From: Methanofervidicoccus sp. A16
GTDB taxonomy: Archaea > AGJL01 > Methanococci > Methanococcales > Methanococcaceae
Reading direction: 5' to 3'
DNA: 64,000 nt
NCBI RefSeq assembly: GCF_003351865.1
Contig: NZ_CP022242.1
Location: 1-64,000, forward strand
Shown here: positions 20,022 to 51,339 of the stretch, piece by piece
Numbering within the stretch: position 1 is the first letter of the stretch
Layout: every line of letters begins with the position of its first letter
Notes under the pieces: generated by a model
Told to the model about the DNA's origin: nothing
Seen by the model: the letters and a program-made list of their open reading frames with translations, nothing else
Databases searched by the model: none
Made by a program: the position numbers and the translations under genes

Positions 20022-20720
20022 GTGGCTGTAGAATCTAAGGAGGTTGAACTGGAGAACACCTTAGTATTTGAAACCTTAGGAAATCCAGAGAAGGAGAGAG
20101 AATTTAAATTAAAGTCTTTGAAGAAGTGGGGTTTTGACTTGATATTTGGAAAGATAGATGGTAGAGAGACCTACTTCACAGCGGAGTTGGAGGAAAAGAA
20201 GGCTGGAGACAAATTCTCCAGAGAGGGTAAAGAGTACGAGGTAATAGAGGTACTGGAAGAACTACCTAAGAATGTGGAGTTGTACGCCCATATAGAGATG
20301 GAGATGGGAAGGGCCTATATAGTATGTGAGTTAAGGGACGAGGATGGAGTAAATACCGAGGTGCTGAGGGTTCCTGCAGCCTCTCTACTCTATGCATTCT
20401 TTAAGAAGAACAAATTAGGAAATCTATTAAAGGCCGTAAGAAATGTTGGAATAAGTATTGAATTCTCCCAACAGAACGGTGTAGGTGGAAAACCACTTTC
20501 ATACCAGGAGTTACCTAACACACCTAGGAGATTTATTAGAAGTGTCAGGAAGGTTGAAAAGGAGACAGGATTTGGTAGATTGTCTATTGCATACTATGGA
20601 GAGACTAAAGATGGAGAACCAAGATTCTGGTACAGTTGGCTACTTCCTACAATAGCCCTATTCGATCTCACAATTGCAAAGAAGGTCAATCAAACCCTTG
20701 GTATATTAAAAGTAGATTAA
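20022..20720 (+). CDS. Unrecognised conserved-looking protein, first of a pair
   Basis: I do not recognise this 232-residue soluble protein. The first 110 residues are strongly acidic and strand-like (repeated short beta segments such as KWGFDLIFGKIDGRETYFTAELEE). The second half is basic and more helical (AFFKKNKLGNLLKAVRNVG and PRRFIRSVRKVEKE) and contains an aromatic patch near PRFWYSWLLP. There are no cysteine clusters or nucleotide loops. Start GTG follows GGTGAT by three bases. Codon use matches the core genes, so it looks native, unlike the pair just upstream. A small gene follows after ten bases. Confidence 0.75.
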   Translation: MAVESKEVELENTLVFETLGNPEKEREFKLKSLKKWGFDLIFGKIDGRETYFTAELEEKKAGDKFSREGKEYEVIEVLEELPKNVELYAHIEMEMGRAYIVCELRDEDGVNTEVLRVPAASLLYAFFKKNKLGNLLKAVRNVGISIEFSQQNGVGGKPLSYQELPNTPRRFIRSVRKVEKETGFGRLSIAYYGETKDGEPRFWYSWLLPTIALFDLTIAKKVNQTLGILKVD

Positions 20721-22779: not shown

Positions 22780-23394
22780 TTACCTCAAATTCAGAACCTC
22801 CATCTCTATTTTATCCCCATCTATAAGAGCAGTTGCACAACATACTGGATGTTCAAACTCCTTATATTCGAGAATATATTTACAGATTTCCCTTGGTGTC
22901 TCTCCTACTACAGGTATCTTCTGATCCTCTGAAATACTACAAACTCCATATGTACCTAAGTAGTATCCTATTCCATCTTTTAGAGGAACTTCACACACTC
23001 GTATATCTCTATCTGAAACGTATCCCAGGTATCCACCCTCTCTATATAAAATCCCTGCTATTCTGGGAGTTTTATACTCATCCTTCTCGTAATCCATTGT
23101 AGCAAGAGGATATATGAGGGCATCCCTCACTGGAAATCCCATCTCTATCTTATCCCCTATAACATCGGTATGGGAGCCATTAGTTGCAACTACATAGTTC
23201 CCTATAACCTTTAGGGCATTGTACATAATATAGGGATTTTTGAGGATGTCCTCTATACTCTCCGGTACTATAGTAACTGTATTATTCTTTAATACTGCCC
23301 TCCTATTTGGAAAACTTCTACTGGATACTCTGTAGGAGATAAATGGTTTCCCGTTCTCTGTCTTTCCCATAACTAAAAATCTACCTATGTAGAT
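22780..23394 (-). CDS. purO: Archaeal IMP cyclohydrolase PurO, start codon apparently ATC
   Basis: Converts FAICAR to IMP, the last purine step, in the archaeal way. Landmarks are YRVSSRSFPNRRA near the N-terminus and FEHPVCCATALIDG near the end. The family begins with M-Y-I-G-R-F-L-V. Here those residues are encoded in frame upstream of the first ATG (23370), but no ATG, GTG or TTG is available: the codons after the in-frame stop TGA (23404-23406) are GGT GAT ACT ATC TAC ATA. The ATC at 23394 lies exactly three bases after GGTGAT, the local spacing rule. The product from there is 204 residues. A sequencing error turning ATG into ATC is the main alternative. The site overlaps the queC stop, so translation is coupled. 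Confidence 0.85.
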   Translation of the reverse strand: MYIGRFLVMGKTENGKPFISYRVSSRSFPNRRAVLKNNTVTIVPESIEDILKNPYIMYNALKVIGNYVVATNGSHTDVIGDKIEMGFPVRDALIYPLATMDYEKDEYKTPRIAGILYREGGYLGYVSDRDIRVCEVPLKDGIGYYLGTYGVCSISEDQKIPVVGETPREICKYILEYKEFEHPVCCATALIDGDKIEMEVLNLR

Positions 23395-23398
23395 AGTA

Positions 23399-24103
23399 TC
23401 ACCTCAAGTACTTAGTAGGATCTTCAATACCTGCCTCCTTAAATGCCCTCTTCCTTCTGACGCAACTCTCACAGGTTCCACAGTGTAGGAAATCCTCTCC
23501 GTTGTCATGGTAGCAGGAATAACTGTACTTTAGAACCTCCACCCCAAGTTTCTCCTCAAGTTCCCTACCATATTTTACGATTTCAGTTTTATCTAAGTTG
23601 TAGAGTGGTGCTACCAGTTTAACTTCCCTTATTGTACCGTACTCCAAGAGACTGTTAAATCTATCTACAAACTCTAAGGTGTTATCTGGAAATGTAGTGC
23701 CCTCCTCTTTATTCAATCCTGTATATACTTCACCCCCTCCAAGGGACTCTGCAAAACTGGAGGCTATCGAGAACATGACTATATTACGTCCAGGCACCCA
23801 TACAGATCTCATAGTTTCTCTGGTTTTTTCCAAGTTATCTAGATCTTCCTCATTTAATTTGGGAACAGTTTTATCCCGCTCTGTTAAAGCACTTCCTCCA
23901 AACTCCCTCAGGAAGGGAAGTTTAATTACTTTATGCTTTGCACCTAATACCTCTGATATCTTTCTTGCAGAGTTTATCTCCCTAAGTACTGCCCTCTGCC
24001 CATAATCGAAGGTTATAGTATATATATCGTCATCCTTTGATTTTGCTACTAAGGTGGCTACTGTAGAGTCTAAACCTCCACTTAAGACACATACCTTGAC
24101 CAT
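23399..24103 (-). CDS. queC: 7-cyano-7-deazaguanine synthase QueC
   Basis: Makes preQ0 from 7-carboxy-7-deazaguanine with ammonia and ATP; in archaea preQ0 feeds archaeosine in tRNA. The PP-loop LSGGLDSTVA is near residues 7-16, and the zinc site CYHDNGEDFLHCGTCESC is near the C-terminus (about 197-214). The length of 234 is standard. GGAGGGTAAT precedes the ATG. Its stop TGA is part of the GAGGTGAT site used by purO, so queC and purO form an operon. Confidence 0.96.
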   Translation of the reverse strand: MVKVCVLSGGLDSTVATLVAKSKDDDIYTITFDYGQRAVLREINSARKISEVLGAKHKVIKLPFLREFGGSALTERDKTVPKLNEEDLDNLEKTRETMRSVWVPGRNIVMFSIASSFAESLGGGEVYTGLNKEEGTTFPDNTLEFVDRFNSLLEYGTIREVKLVAPLYNLDKTEIVKYGRELEEKLGVEVLKYSYSCYHDNGEDFLHCGTCESCVRRKRAFKEAGIEDPTKYLR

Positions 24104-35632: not shown

Positions 35633-37121
<1,489 letters not shown>

Positions 37122-46253: not shown

Positions 46254-47477
46254 TTATGTTCTGTAATTTTTAATAAGGGTGTTATCTTTATTATACCCCT
46301 GACATACATCATTAAGGGGACAATCTTCACATTTTGGCTCATCATGGTTATAACAGTATTTAGTACCTATGTACATCAGTCCGTCATCGAAGTCTCCCAC
46401 AGAGAAGTCATATCCATCTTTATTCAGTTTATAAATAAGGAGATTTGGCACTCTTTGTATCTCCATAGATCGAGGTTTCCCCATTTTCAAATATTCTCGA
46501 ACTACAACCAAGTAATCATGGAAAAACTCTGAATCAGTTGAGATTCCCTTTACCTTTTTACCACGGATATTAGTTACCCGAATATAATTAACTCCACCTT
46601 TGCCCTTCCCCTTCTGAATTACATTCCACTTTTCATAATCCTTCAAAGTGGCTAACTCCAAAAGAAAACCTGTTCTAAAGAGGACTCGCCCTGCATTACT
46701 ATCTAAAGGTACCTCGTATGAGATACCTGTCCACCCCTTATCATCCTTTCTATGTTTCACAAGTCCAAAAGTACTTACGTATAACTTAGCAAATAGATGG
46801 CAACCTTTATAACCAATTGCACTACCGAGGCCGTATCTCTCGTTATCTTTTAGTTGTTGGGACATAATTTCAGCAGAGGAATGGGATTCTAGATGATCAA
46901 CTAATACCTGTGGAGAACTTTCACACTTTGAATTCAAATCCTTCTCTAACAGTAAGAACATAGCTAAAGGTACTCCCCATCTATGTATAGCATAGTCCAA
47001 TACCTGTTTAGTGGATACTATACCACGCATAGACTGGGTAAAAAATAGATTGTACTTACTAGGTGATGATTTATTTTCCAAGGCCCATTTTTCTGCCCGA
47101 ATCTCTTTAATAGAGTTATGTTTAGATATCATCTCATCTATAGAGATATTTAATTCGTTGAAAAAATCTGTAGGTCTATGAAATATTCTTATTTCTTTTC
47201 GATAAAGGGATGTAGTTACCTCCTTAAGTAGTTCCCTAACTCCAACTATATCAGGTCCCTGATCCAGTACAACATTTACCAACAAATACCTAGTTAAAAT
47301 CTCTCGTCTTGTAAATTTACCGTCGTACTCATCTAACTCATCGTATTTTAAATTCCCCTCCCTGTCAAAGTAGTGTTTAAAGGGTTCCACTTCATAAACA
47401 GGTGGTGTTTCCCTTTTTTCCCTTCCAATCTCAACTAATCTCTTTGTAATATCTAAAAGAAAATCCCAATTAACCAT
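46254..47477 (-). CDS. Putative restriction-like partner of a DNA methyltransferase, with C-terminal Fe-S cysteine motif
   Basis: I do not recognise the 407-residue family with certainty. Its place, overlapping the methyltransferase gene by eight bases, and its AT-rich codon use make a restriction endonuclease or linked repair enzyme likely. The C-terminus has Cys375-x7-Cys383-x2-Cys386-x5-Cys392, close to the C-x6-C-x2-C-x5-C cluster of endonuclease III-type glycosylases. No helix-hairpin-helix or PD-(D/E)xK motif is plain, although the N-terminal ILTRYLLVNVVLDQGPDIVGVRELL loosely resembles the start of such a glycosylase fold. The ATG after GGGAGGAT is preferred to an in-frame ATG eight codons upstream. 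Confidence 0.7.
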   Translation of the reverse strand: MVNWDFLLDITKRLVEIGREKRETPPVYEVEPFKHYFDREGNLKYDELDEYDGKFTRREILTRYLLVNVVLDQGPDIVGVRELLKEVTTSLYRKEIRIFHRPTDFFNELNISIDEMISKHNSIKEIRAEKWALENKSSPSKYNLFFTQSMRGIVSTKQVLDYAIHRWGVPLAMFLLLEKDLNSKCESSPQVLVDHLESHSSAEIMSQQLKDNERYGLGSAIGYKGCHLFAKLYVSTFGLVKHRKDDKGWTGISYEVPLDSNAGRVLFRTGFLLELATLKDYEKWNVIQKGKGKGGVNYIRVTNIRGKKVKGISTDSEFFHDYLVVVREYLKMGKPRSMEIQRVPNLLIYKLNKDGYDFSVGDFDDGLMYIGTKYCYNHDEPKCEDCPLNDVCQGYNKDNTLIKNYRT

Positions 47478-48234
47478 CTCTATCCTCCCGTCCTTCACCA
47501 TTTATCCATTTAAATAGATTTATCTGGACATTGGATAGTCTTTTTTTGGCAAATTCGTAGTACTCCGGTACTATCTCAAATCCAATGTAGTGTCTTCCCA
47601 ACATTTTAGATACCACTGCCACAGTACCTGAACCTAGGAAGGGATCTAAAACTATATCTCCCTCATCACTACTGAACAGAATTATCTTTTTTACAAGTTC
47701 TATCGGTAGTTTTGTAGGTGTTTTTATCTTTCCAGTCCAGTACTCCCTGTTGATGATCCATACATCCTCTGGATAATGCTCGATTTTATTGAATTTGTAT
47801 CTTTTCTCATCTTTAACTACAAAAAGTATATGGTAATGACTTGTTACGTATTTTCTCTTTGTAAATACTCCAAATTGATACTTCCATATAATATGATTTA
47901 TTGTTATAAAACCTACATCATCCAATGCATTTAGAACATCTTTTAAATTAGTCCATCCAGAGAAAACATACATACTTCCACTTCTCTTCAAAACACGGTA
48001 CGCCTCCTCCATCCAAGTTCGTGTAAATTCGTAGTATTTTTCCTTAGGGATCTCGTTATAACCCTCTAAGACATTTTCCTCACTTCTGTTGTAATTACTA
48101 CGTCTTGCTTTAAAATCAATGGCAAAAGGTGGATCAGTTACTATTAAATCTATGGAATCGGATGGCAGATCTTTCATTAACTTTAAGGCATCTCCACAGT
48201 ATATTTCATCAACTTTAAATTTTCCCAGTTTCAT
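47470..48234 (-). CDS. DNA methyltransferase, beta class (N4-cytosine or N6-adenine)
   Basis: A 254-residue SAM-dependent DNA modification enzyme. The catalytic motif DPPF (residues 34-37, TDPPFAID) comes first and the SAM-binding DPFLGSGT (197-204) comes near the C-terminus, the order of the beta class; the target-recognition region lies between. DPPF does not settle whether cytosine N4 or adenine N6 is modified. It overlaps its partner gene by eight bases, so translation is coupled. The pair sits among repeats, consistent with a mobile restriction-modification unit. The target sequence is unknown. Confidence 0.9.
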   Translation of the reverse strand: MKLGKFKVDEIYCGDALKLMKDLPSDSIDLIVTDPPFAIDFKARRSNYNRSEENVLEGYNEIPKEKYYEFTRTWMEEAYRVLKRSGSMYVFSGWTNLKDVLNALDDVGFITINHIIWKYQFGVFTKRKYVTSHYHILFVVKDEKRYKFNKIEHYPEDVWIINREYWTGKIKTPTKLPIELVKKIILFSSDEGDIVLDPFLGSGTVAVVSKMLGRHYIGFEIVPEYYEFAKKRLSNVQINLFKWINGEGREDRDG

Positions 48235-48306: not shown

Positions 48307-49074
48307 TTATTTCACAGTACAATACTCCAAAACCTTTGCACATTGACAGTTTTTTTCCCTACTAAGAGCGTGTTCTATAAAGTCCTCCACTATCCCTATT
48401 AACTTCTCCTCCACCTTTCTTATAACTTCAAAAACTTCATCCACTGTTAGTTTATCCTTAGATATCCCTGCAGCGTAGTTTGTCACTGTACAAAGTGAGG
48501 CGTAGCATAATCCCAACTCCTTTGCCAGTGCTACCTCAGGATAGCCTGTCATACCTACTACATCCCCAAGGGTCCTGTAGAATCTTATCTCAGATTTCGT
48601 CTCAAATCTTGGTCCCTCTGTACAGATATATACCCCTTCATTGTAGGGATAACCTCTCCTATCCAGTACATCCCTTAAAATGTTCATAACCTCTGGACAG
48701 TAAGGTTCTGAAAGATCTATATGAACTACCTTGCCATCCTCACCGTCGTAATATGTGGATATTCTATTTTTAGTAAACTCCATAAAGTCCTGAGGTATGA
48801 AAAACGTCCCAGGTTTAATATGCTCCTTTAAAGAGCCAACAGAGTTTATACTTAATATCCTCTCTACTCCTAACATCTTAAGTGCGTAGATATTTGCCCT
48901 GTAGTTAATCCTATGAGGTGGAATACTGTGGTTTAAACCATGCCTAAATAGGAGTACTACACTGTCTTCCCTATCTATCAACACCTTTACCTTCCCGTAC
49001 TTGGTGTTTATTACCTCTTCTTTACCCCTCCTTAGAACTGAAGATATCCCCGTCCCTCCTATTATTCCTATTAT
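48307..49074 (-). CDS. S-methyl-5'-thioinosine phosphorylase, start codon apparently ATA
   Basis: A purine nucleoside phosphorylase of the MTAP/MTIP family. In M. jannaschii the homologue splits methylthioinosine, made from methylthioadenosine by DadD. Landmarks are LLFRHGLNHSIPPHRINYRANIYAL, STYYDGED, CTEGPRFETKSEIRFYR and the GMTGYPEVALA motif. The family N-terminus IGIIGGTGISSVLRRGKEEV is encoded in frame upstream of the first usual start, a TTG at 48984, but between the in-frame TGA (49084-49086) and that motif there is no ATG, GTG or TTG. The codons are GGT GAT AGT ATA ATA GGA. ATA at 49074, three bases after GGTGAT, gives 255 residues, the normal family length. Confidence 0.85.
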   Translation of the reverse strand: MIGIIGGTGISSVLRRGKEEVINTKYGKVKVLIDREDSVVLLFRHGLNHSIPPHRINYRANIYALKMLGVERILSINSVGSLKEHIKPGTFFIPQDFMEFTKNRISTYYDGEDGKVVHIDLSEPYCPEVMNILRDVLDRRGYPYNEGVYICTEGPRFETKSEIRFYRTLGDVVGMTGYPEVALAKELGLCYASLCTVTNYAAGISKDKLTVDEVFEVIRKVEEKLIGIVEDFIEHALSREKNCQCAKVLEYCTVK

Positions 49075-49083
49075 ACTATCACC

Positions 49084-49509
49084 TCATTCTTCCTGTAGAG
49101 TTTTACAGTCTAAGAAAAATATATCCCCATCTTCCGAGACACTTACAATAAAAGGTTTTTTAACTATTCTTCTCTCTATATTATCTTTCATATTTCTATA
49201 TATGAGATCTACCAATTCCAAGGAGTTATACTTTACATGTATATTCAACTTATTACATTCTTCATATATCATTTTAGGAATTTGAAATACGTCAGTATTC
49301 TCTTTAACAGTCAGTCGTAAAGGAGCAATTATACTCTCATATATTTTTAAGGTATTTTTTGCCTTTTCGATATTTTCCCTTGCCCTCTTCTCTATCATAC
49401 ATATATTTGCCTTAGTGGTGTTCATTAAATTGGCTATCTCTTCTAAGGTCAAACCTTTTCTCCGTAGTTTAAGTACTTTTATCTGAGTATCTGTTAGAAA
49501 AGATTCCAT
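49084..49509 (-). CDS. Tfx-family DNA-binding regulator
   Basis: A 141-residue methanogen regulator like Tfx of Methanothermobacter, which binds near the molybdenum formylmethanofuran dehydrogenase operon. The N-terminal helix-turn-helix is LTDTQIKVLKLRRKGLTLEEIANLMNTTKANICMIEKRARENIEKAKNTL; the acidic C-terminal domain may sense a ligand. Its stop TGA is part of the ribosome binding site of the phosphorylase gene, so the two are translated together. What it controls here is unknown. Confidence 0.9.
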   Translation of the reverse strand: MESFLTDTQIKVLKLRRKGLTLEEIANLMNTTKANICMIEKRARENIEKAKNTLKIYESIIAPLRLTVKENTDVFQIPKMIYEECNKLNIHVKYNSLELVDLIYRNMKDNIERRIVKKPFIVSVSEDGDIFFLDCKTLQEE

Positions 49510-50046
49510 ATTTATCCCACTTATCGCTGGATATTGATATTAATTTTAATAATATTATAATAAATTGCCTCTCTAAAGTTGGTACTGTTTTAAGATGTTT
49601 TTAATAAATAATTTTAAATGAATATGTCCAAGATATTAGAGATAGTTTAATTTTGTTCCCATTAAAAGAGTTATTAAAAAAGATAATAAAATTAAAATTA
49701 TTATAAAGATTAAAAATTAATTTAGTAAAAAAGAACTTTAAAACTTTTGTGGGACAATCCTAAAAACAGGATAAGATGTGAGAATTTTCTCGTGATATTT
49801 AGGACATTAAGAGTTATAGTTGGAAAGAAATAGAAAATTTTTCTCTCCTTTTAATGTTTAGTGGTAGAGAATGGGAAATTATCCAGATTTATACAACTGA
49901 AATAAATATTTATTTGTAATTATTTTATAAATTAATTTTTATTAGATATTTTTTGAGAACTGAAAATTATAATTACGATTAATAAGATTACGTATCCCCC
50001 ATTCTTCTCAAAAAATTATTTTAGTAAGAGTATAGCGGTGATAACA
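49510..50046. other. Gap with possible small hairpins and a repeat relic
   Basis: About 540 bases. TTGTTCCCATTAAAAG near 49654 looks like a worn end of the repeat family. Between 49742 and 49870 the sequence is less AT-rich and contains two short inverted repeats, ATCCT...AGGAT (49758-49773) and GAGAATTTTCTC (49782-49793). This might be an untranslated RNA, but support is weak. Confidence 0.3.
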
Positions 50047-51339
50047 ATGGACATACTTATTAAAGACCTAGATTACGCTGTAGACACTAATTTAAACGTC
50101 TATAAAGATATAGATATACTTATCAGAAGAGATGAAGATGGTAGAAAGATAACATTACATAGAGGCAGGAACCTCCTAGAGAAATTCAACTTAAATGAAA
50201 AAGATCTAAAAATAATTAACGGAGATAAGAAATGTGCAATACCTGGATTAAGCAATAATCACACCCATATACCTATGACTCTCCTAAGGGGAATAGCAGA
50301 TGATATGATATTACAAAACTGGTTAAGGGAGAAGATATGGCCTAATGAGGCTAAACTAACAGGGGAGGATGTGTACTATGGGGCGCTACTTGGATGTTTA
50401 GAGATGTTAAGATTTGGTGTAACCTCATTTAACGATATGTACTTTTTTCCTGAGGAGATAGTTAGGGCTACTAAGGAGGTAGGTATAAAGGGATCTATAG
50501 GCTTTCCCATAATAGACTTTGGCACACCTCAATGTAAGGACTTGGATAAACTTCTAAGTAACTGTGAAAAATTTATAAGAGAATATATTGAAGAGAAGAA
50601 GATTAAACCAGTTGTAGCTCCTCACGCTCCTTACACATGTTCAAAGGATACATATATTCGGTGTAAAGAGATATCCCAGGAGTACAACGTCCCTATACAT
50701 ACCCATCTATCTGAAACAAGGTATGAAGTTGTAGAGATGGAGAATAAGATGGGAATGAGGCCTGTGGAGTACCTGGAGAGTATAGGGATTTTGGGAGACA
50801 ATCTTATAACTGCCCACTGTGTATGGGTTACAAAGGAGGAGGTAAAGAGACTTGGGAAGTATAAGGTAAAGGTAGTCCACTGTCCAGGGAGTAATATGAA
50901 ACTTGCCAGTGGAGGGGTTATGCCCCTTGTGGAGATGTTAAGAGAGGGTGTATCTCTATCCCTTGGGACAGATGGACCTGCTAGCAACAACAACTTAGAT
51001 ATGTTGGAGGAAATGAAGATCTGTGCACTACTCCATAAGGCACACAGATGGGATCCTAGAGTGGGGGATGTAGATACTGTCCTACGTATGGCATTTAACA
51101 GTGAATCTATAGGGTTTGAAAATAGAGATGTGGTGCTTTTAGATCTTACGAGTCCTCATCTTAGGCCTGTACATAATATAAAATCCAATATAGTATATTC
51201 TGCAAATGGGAATGACGTAGATACTGTAATTGTAGATGGAGAGGTGCTACTGGAGGATAAAAAATTCCTGAGAATGGACGATAAAGATCTAAGGGATATC
51301 TATAGTAAGGTAGATAAGATAGTAAAAAAGTTTGAATAA
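50047..51339 (+). CDS. dadD: 5'-deoxyadenosine deaminase DadD (MTA/SAH deaminase family)
   Basis: A metal-dependent amidohydrolase of 430 residues. In M. jannaschii DadD deaminates 5'-deoxyadenosine, S-adenosylhomocysteine and methylthioadenosine. Zinc ligands are in the HTH triplet (His72 and His74, NNHTHIPMTLLRG), in THLSETRYE, in ITAHCVWV and in the LGTDGPASNN aspartate motif. The ATG follows GGTGAT by four bases; an in-frame GTG overlaps the site. The methylthioinosine phosphorylase that would use its product is 1 kb away in the opposite direction. Confidence 0.93.
   Translation: MDILIKDLDYAVDTNLNVYKDIDILIRRDEDGRKITLHRGRNLLEKFNLNEKDLKIINGDKKCAIPGLSNNHTHIPMTLLRGIADDMILQNWLREKIWPNEAKLTGEDVYYGALLGCLEMLRFGVTSFNDMYFFPEEIVRATKEVGIKGSIGFPIIDFGTPQCKDLDKLLSNCEKFIREYIEEKKIKPVVAPHAPYTCSKDTYIRCKEISQEYNVPIHTHLSETRYEVVEMENKMGMRPVEYLESIGILGDNLITAHCVWVTKEEVKRLGKYKVKVVHCPGSNMKLASGGVMPLVEMLREGVSLSLGTDGPASNNNLDMLEEMKICALLHKAHRWDPRVGDVDTVLRMAFNSESIGFENRDVVLLDLTSPHLRPVHNIKSNIVYSANGNDVDTVIVDGEVLLEDKKFLRMDDKDLRDIYSKVDKIVKKFE

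Follow-up and report, generated by a model that had tools for sequence, protein, structure and literature searches.

An AUA start codon, very probably functional, in a methylthioinosine phosphorylase gene of Methanofervidicoccus and a candidate minor class of AUA, AUC and AUU starts in Methanococcales

Bacteria are known to use start codons that depart from AUG at the third base, namely AUU, AUC and AUA, and there initiation factor 3 (IF3) screens them (PMC4611024). In Staphylococcus aureus, infC, ccpN (AUA) and cvfC1 (AUU) carry conserved non-canonical starts with an extended Shine–Dalgarno (SD) sequence, citZ likewise begins with AUA, and reporters of ccpN, cvfC1 and citZ deliver about 10–30% of the output obtained with AUG (PMC13009471). 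The AUU starts of Escherichia coli infC and pcnB were confirmed on sequence in the present analysis. Hecht et al. reportedly described, in 2017, initiation from all 64 codons. In vitro, the archaeal factor aIF1 is stated to disfavour starts other than AUG (PMC6237735, PMC8211752), and no report of natural AUA, AUC or AUU starts in archaea was found in the literature searched, most subscription journals being outside the reach of that search. Here, we describe a purine-salvage gene of the methylthioinosine/methylthioadenosine phosphorylase (MTIP/MTAP) family located in the first 64,000 nucleotides of contig NZ_CP022242.1 of the heat-loving methanogen Methanofervidicoccus sp. A16, a stretch hereafter called the window. 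Judging from sequence comparison, the gene is intact, is very probably translated from AUA (49074, minus strand) and is one of a few genes with AUA, AUC or AUU starts (AUH, where H is A, C or U; ATH in DNA form).

The archaeal genes resemble the bacterial AUU and AUA genes in that the putative start is a third-base near-cognate of AUG, the SD is extended, the codon is conserved and its place is fixed by the N-terminus of the protein family. They differ in that IF3 discriminates in bacteria whereas this archaeon has aIF1 and aIF2, and the archaeal set comprises several metabolic genes, includes AUC as well and lies mostly directly behind another gene. With archaeal GUG and UUG starts, AUH starts would share an SD-led initiator tRNA with one mismatch, but the mismatch falls at the third codon base and the codons lie outside standard gene-finder models.

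On the minus strand, the letters around the start read ...CAG GAA GAA TGA GGT GAT AGT ATA ATA GGA ATA ATA GGA GGG ACG GGG ATA TCT... and translate as stop-G-D-S-I-I-G-I-I-G-G-T-G-I-S-S-V-L. The frame encoding IGIIGGTGISSVL... spans the in-frame TGA (49084-49086) to a TAA (48307-48309), and no ATG, GTG or TTG is present between this TGA and the GTG at 48984. The first-pass annotation, made from the letters alone, had claimed that the phosphorylase N-terminus has no usual start codon and that the TGA is followed by GGT GAT AGT ATA; reading of the minus strand bears out both the claim and the positions. The first ATA, proposed there as the initiator-methionine position, aligns exactly with the MIGIIGGTG, VIGIIGGTG and LIGIIGGTG starts of relatives. 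The 16S rRNA in the window ends GGATCACCTCCTT and is complementary to GGAGGTGAT; GGTGAT with a three-nucleotide gap also sets the start of the gene at 20022, as had been noted, where it precedes a GTG. A gap of 3 nt is the commonest spacing before ATG in the study genome (166 of ~316; 864 kb). The pattern GGTGATNNNATH occurs three times in the window against 2.4 expected from shuffling; since it is not rare by itself, the conserved N-terminus and the relatives carry the weight of the case.

The protein matches PF01048 over its full length (166.7 bits, cut-off 25.1). It scores barely above the cut-off of the methylthioinosine phosphorylase model NF006599 (PRK09136; 224, cut-off 223) and slightly below that of the MTAP model TIGR01694 (268.2, cut-off 274.85); MTIP rather than MTAP is the activity tentatively predicted from these family models. 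The N-terminal GGTG/GGSG loop is present, IGIIGGTG being encoded and aligned with MTAPs of solved structure, and the earlier statement that an internal start would lose this Gly-rich loop holds.

A comparison of the same codon across related Methanococcales, suggested by the first-pass annotation, was carried out on 30 orthologues with a readable N-terminus (the study genome is designated G000, and the other G-codes, G004 to G035, are relatives). At the position of the M in MIGIIGGTG, seven of them carry ATA, nine TTG, eight ATG and six GTG. The seven ATA genomes (G000, G028, G022, G025, G026, G030, G027) all belong to the study genus, are independent assemblies with 73–100% protein identity, and form one clade (support 99/97; recovered in 99% of bootstrap trees). 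Their context is always GGTGAT or GGTGG, 3 nt and ATA (7/7). In the same-genus genomes G024, G029 and G023, TTG takes the place of the initiator, and the remaining order has GTG, ATG or TTG; in these sister lineages, TTG, GTG or ATG follows the very SD that precedes ATA in the ATA clade. The Methanocaldococcus and Methanococcus orthologues share the enzyme family, N-terminus, SD and spacing but start with GTG, ATG or TTG, while bacterial and other archaeal relatives with an aligned start have ATG. A sequencing or assembly error could hide a true ATG, which one base change would give back, yet ATA recurs in seven independent genomes with differing synonymous surroundings, and the same start class recurs in other genes, which leaves error with a negligible probability. 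Loss of the start codon is also a common first lesion of pseudogenes; here, however, the gene keeps an open frame of 255 codons, is under strong purifying selection, matches the family model at full length and keeps its start codon across the divergence of seven species, so that a pseudogene is scarcely credible.

A shorter protein might instead begin at an internal canonical codon. The first-pass annotation placed a TTG start at 48984; position 48984 is in fact GTG, where annotation software would first meet a canonical start, and the TTG follows it directly at 48981. Use of the GTG would drop 30 residues (residues 2–30 including IGIIGGTGISSVLR), the GGTG loop among them, and codons 2–30 are under purifying selection (pN/pS 0.17 in five close ATA genomes). 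The next in-frame canonical codon of the seven ATA genomes lies at codons 31 (G000), 47, 16, 65 (G025), 10, 40 and 21, and every one of them would delete the loop (residues 6–9). With positions scattered from codon 10 to codon 65, no alternative start is conserved, and no SD-led canonical start was found within the MTIP frame. We therefore regard an internal start as highly unlikely.

The frame is also continuous with that of tfx upstream, and readthrough of the tfx stop, with TGA read as selenocysteine or another residue, would give a Tfx–MTIP fusion. The tfx TGA and MTIP share one frame in G000, G028, G022 and G025, but the upstream stop is TAA in G026 and G027, and G030 has a TAG at −11, out of frame with MTIP. 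Because the stop upstream of the ATA genes is thus TGA, TAA or TAG, and stands in another frame in G030, conserved readthrough is excluded. Moreover, the 9–12 bases between the two genes are occupied by the SD, and the phosphorylases of sister lineages start independently behind the same SD, which makes a fusion extremely improbable. Each of the seven ATA genes immediately follows a coding frame, which in G000 is tfx; none of the four TTG genes checked (G024, G029, G033 and G023) does so. Initiation at ATA, as originally proposed, is strongly supported by the conservation in seven genomes, the SD shared with the sister lineages, the lack of a conserved alternative and the purifying selection.

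The earlier reading covered one gene; the evidence points to several AUH-start genes in the family, few in number, of which purO also lies in the window. The scan covered 864 of 1504 kb of G000 (57%), with 716 gene-like frames defined via codon-usage scores, and recorded which codon sits at SD + 3 nt before the first canonical codon of each frame. As AUH starts with a weak SD escape such a scan, its count is a lower bound. The clear cases in G000 are MTIP, purO (archaeal IMP cyclohydrolase), an AK6/Fap7-like nucleotide kinase, a GT2 glycosyltransferase and a RimK-like ATP-grasp gene, and a nifN-type nitrogenase-cofactor gene is likely (Table 1). The RimK-like gene first surfaced in a pairwise orthologue scan of G000 against G024, in which antisense frames and rRNA swamped all but ~80 usable genes. 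A seventh scan match, ATA at 554619-554906 of G000, is probably due to chance.

Orthologues follow a common pattern in which AU is constant and the third base shifts among A, C and U between species (ambiguous AUH orthologues were left out of the counts). The purO start is ATC in G000, ATT in G022 and ATC in G025, with ATG or GTG in other lineages. The AK6-like kinase has AUA or AUU in all Methanococcaceae genomes read and ATG in Methanocaldococcus; nine genomes (G000, G028, G022, G025, G023, G033, G015, G018, G017) offer it no other usable start. For the RimK-like gene, five unambiguous genomes show ATC or ATT, and genus g2 shows ATG; the glycosyltransferase has ATA in G000, ATC in G032, ATT in G030 (ambiguous) and ATG elsewhere. 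Database-annotated starts of the kinase may fall past its P-loop. The nifN-type protein match spans one TAA in G030, G031 and G024. Further AUH candidates came from stretches of three relatives: a dCTP deaminase-like gene with ATT within G024:C2 480001-880000, a HAD-like gene with ATT and a second gene with ATC within G017:C1 100001-500000, and a membrane/signal-peptidase-like gene with ATT within G004:C1 100001-500000.

Table 1. Features of the MTIP locus and of the other genes with AUH starts; coordinates are those of the window unless a contig is given.
Feature	Coordinates	Strand	Basis or remark
Methylthioinosine/methylthioadenosine phosphorylase (PNP_UDP_1), predicted; 255 codons + TAA, starts ATA	48307..49074	-	frame, family models, orthologues
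ATA at initiator position	49072..49074	-	sequence; kept in 7 genomes
SD site GAGGTGAT, 3 nt 5' of ATA, overlapping tfx stop	49078..49085	-	pairs with 16S 3' end
tfx (Tfx-family DNA-binding protein), upstream, co-directional	49084..49509	-	TGA 49084-49086, 9 nt before ATA, same frame
GTG at codon 31, first canonical codon of the frame; not accepted as start	48982..48984	-	removes GGTG loop; position not conserved
Anti-SD ATCACCTCCTT, 16S rRNA 3' end	35633..35643	-	pairs with SD
purO (archaeal IMP cyclohydrolase), starts ATC (23392-23394), family start MYIGRFLV	22780..23394	-	scan, orthologues, family assignment
purO SD site GAGGTGAT, contains queC TGA (23399-23401)	23398..23405	-	sequence
queC-like gene upstream of purO; stop inside purO SD	23399..24103	-	sequence
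AK6/Fap7-like nucleotide kinase, ATA at 487566; P-loop GTPGVGKS directly after start	G000:C1 487018-487566	-	scan, orthologues
GT2 glycosyltransferase, ATA	G000:C1 208439	+	scan, orthologues
RimK-like ATP-grasp, ATC	G000:C1 116666	+	scan, orthologues
nifN-type nitrogenase-cofactor gene, ATT	G000:C1 353374	-	scan; likely, less sure than others

In the four genomes sampled from the order, ATH occupies 12 of the 14 strict sites that lie at SD + 3 nt ahead of any canonical codon, while its share in the background is 16% (P about 2e-8); the sites are few and include MTIP, whose removal leaves 11 of 13. The sole outside control was E. coli, a phylum-wide search having yielded same-order genomes only; under the same rule, 300 kb of E. 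coli gave no ATH excess (0/2 sites), the rule being tuned to the archaeal SD and missing infC and pcnB. A co-directional stop lies no more than 16 nt upstream of five of the six AUH genes of G000, as compared with 95 of 378 (25%) SD-led canonical genes (post hoc Fisher P 0.005); for purO and for the glycosyltransferase, the SD itself contains the TGA of the upstream gene.

Among the 35 tRNAs of G000 there is one initiator tRNA-Met (A1-U72, GGG/CCC anticodon stem, CAU), and among the tRNAs typed (all but tRNA 907158) no other anticodon occurred on a tRNA of initiator type. Since the sole initiator-type tRNA seen has CAU, AUH would be read with a tolerated third-base mismatch, Met-tRNAi(CAU) pairing with A and U, and the protein would accordingly begin with methionine. 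SD–anti-SD pairing may keep the small subunit in place and offset the weak codon. In addition, we hypothesize that a ribosome ending the upstream gene atop the SD, as would occur in most cases, is well placed to initiate on such a codon. Output from AUH is probably below that from AUG.

Taken together, we lean slightly towards the view that AUA, AUC and AUU form a regular minor start class in Methanococcales, above all Methanococcaceae (~0.7% of G000 genes). Drift of the third base would be unconstrained in this class, which strong SD pairing and termination-coupled reinitiation would make possible, perhaps together with a laxer check of that base by the archaeal initiation complex, and in one kinase AUH would be kept family-wide, including Methanococcus. 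Several observations weigh against the AUH starts or their proposed basis. As ATA is the commonest Ile codon in G000 (4773/7946), the absence of ATG carries more weight than the invariance of ATA across the seven genomes. The purO ATA of G027 and G030 is ambiguous, with 4-nt spacing and an in-frame GTG inside the SD; the same holds for the kinase in G024, G029, G034 and G035, and in G026, G030 and G032 the kinase has a TTG two codons downstream. Because the SD is barely longer before AUH than before canonical starts (5.8 vs 5.2; P 0.06), compensation by a stronger SD is a weak argument. Nor is coupling universal, since no stop lies shortly upstream of the RimK-like gene in G000.

An AUA start could also be a regulatory device rather than a neutral variant, with start-codon stringency used to hold down and adjust expression as in bacterial infC and ccpN, which is compatible with initiation at AUA as such. 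AUA is conserved over a clade, and bacterial codons of this kind, at about 10–30% of AUG output, can be condition-responsive (PMC13009471). However, the AUH genes are functionally unrelated, and four of them (purO and the kinase, glycosyltransferase and RimK-like genes) show a third base that varies between A, C and U; this drift mildly favours tolerance over tuning, and we consider a regulatory role possible but rather doubtful.

Near the phosphorylase, on the opposite strand, an amidohydrolase is encoded (50038-51339, plus), which we take to resemble the methanogen 5'-deoxyadenosine/methylthioadenosine deaminase family. At 46254-48234 (minus), an N6/N4 DNA methylase (PF01555, Type II MTase models) overlaps a 415-aa frame with no assigned family and with a Cys cluster resembling the MutY C-terminal iron-sulfur loops; by its layout, the couple looks like a restriction-modification pair. 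Elsewhere, at about 185460-185640 of G000:C1 (minus), frame-broken GTPase pieces (GYPNVGKSSLINSLTG ... KLLDTPG) form a degraded remnant of a gene that is intact in G024.

Gene models confined to ATG, GTG and TTG would shorten or miss AUH proteins, with loss of the P-loop in the kinase and of the GGTG loop in the phosphorylase. As a conserved natural set of genes with AUA, AUC and AUU starts, the AUH genes would make archaeal start-codon stringency testable in vivo, in a family that includes the genetically tractable Methanococcus.
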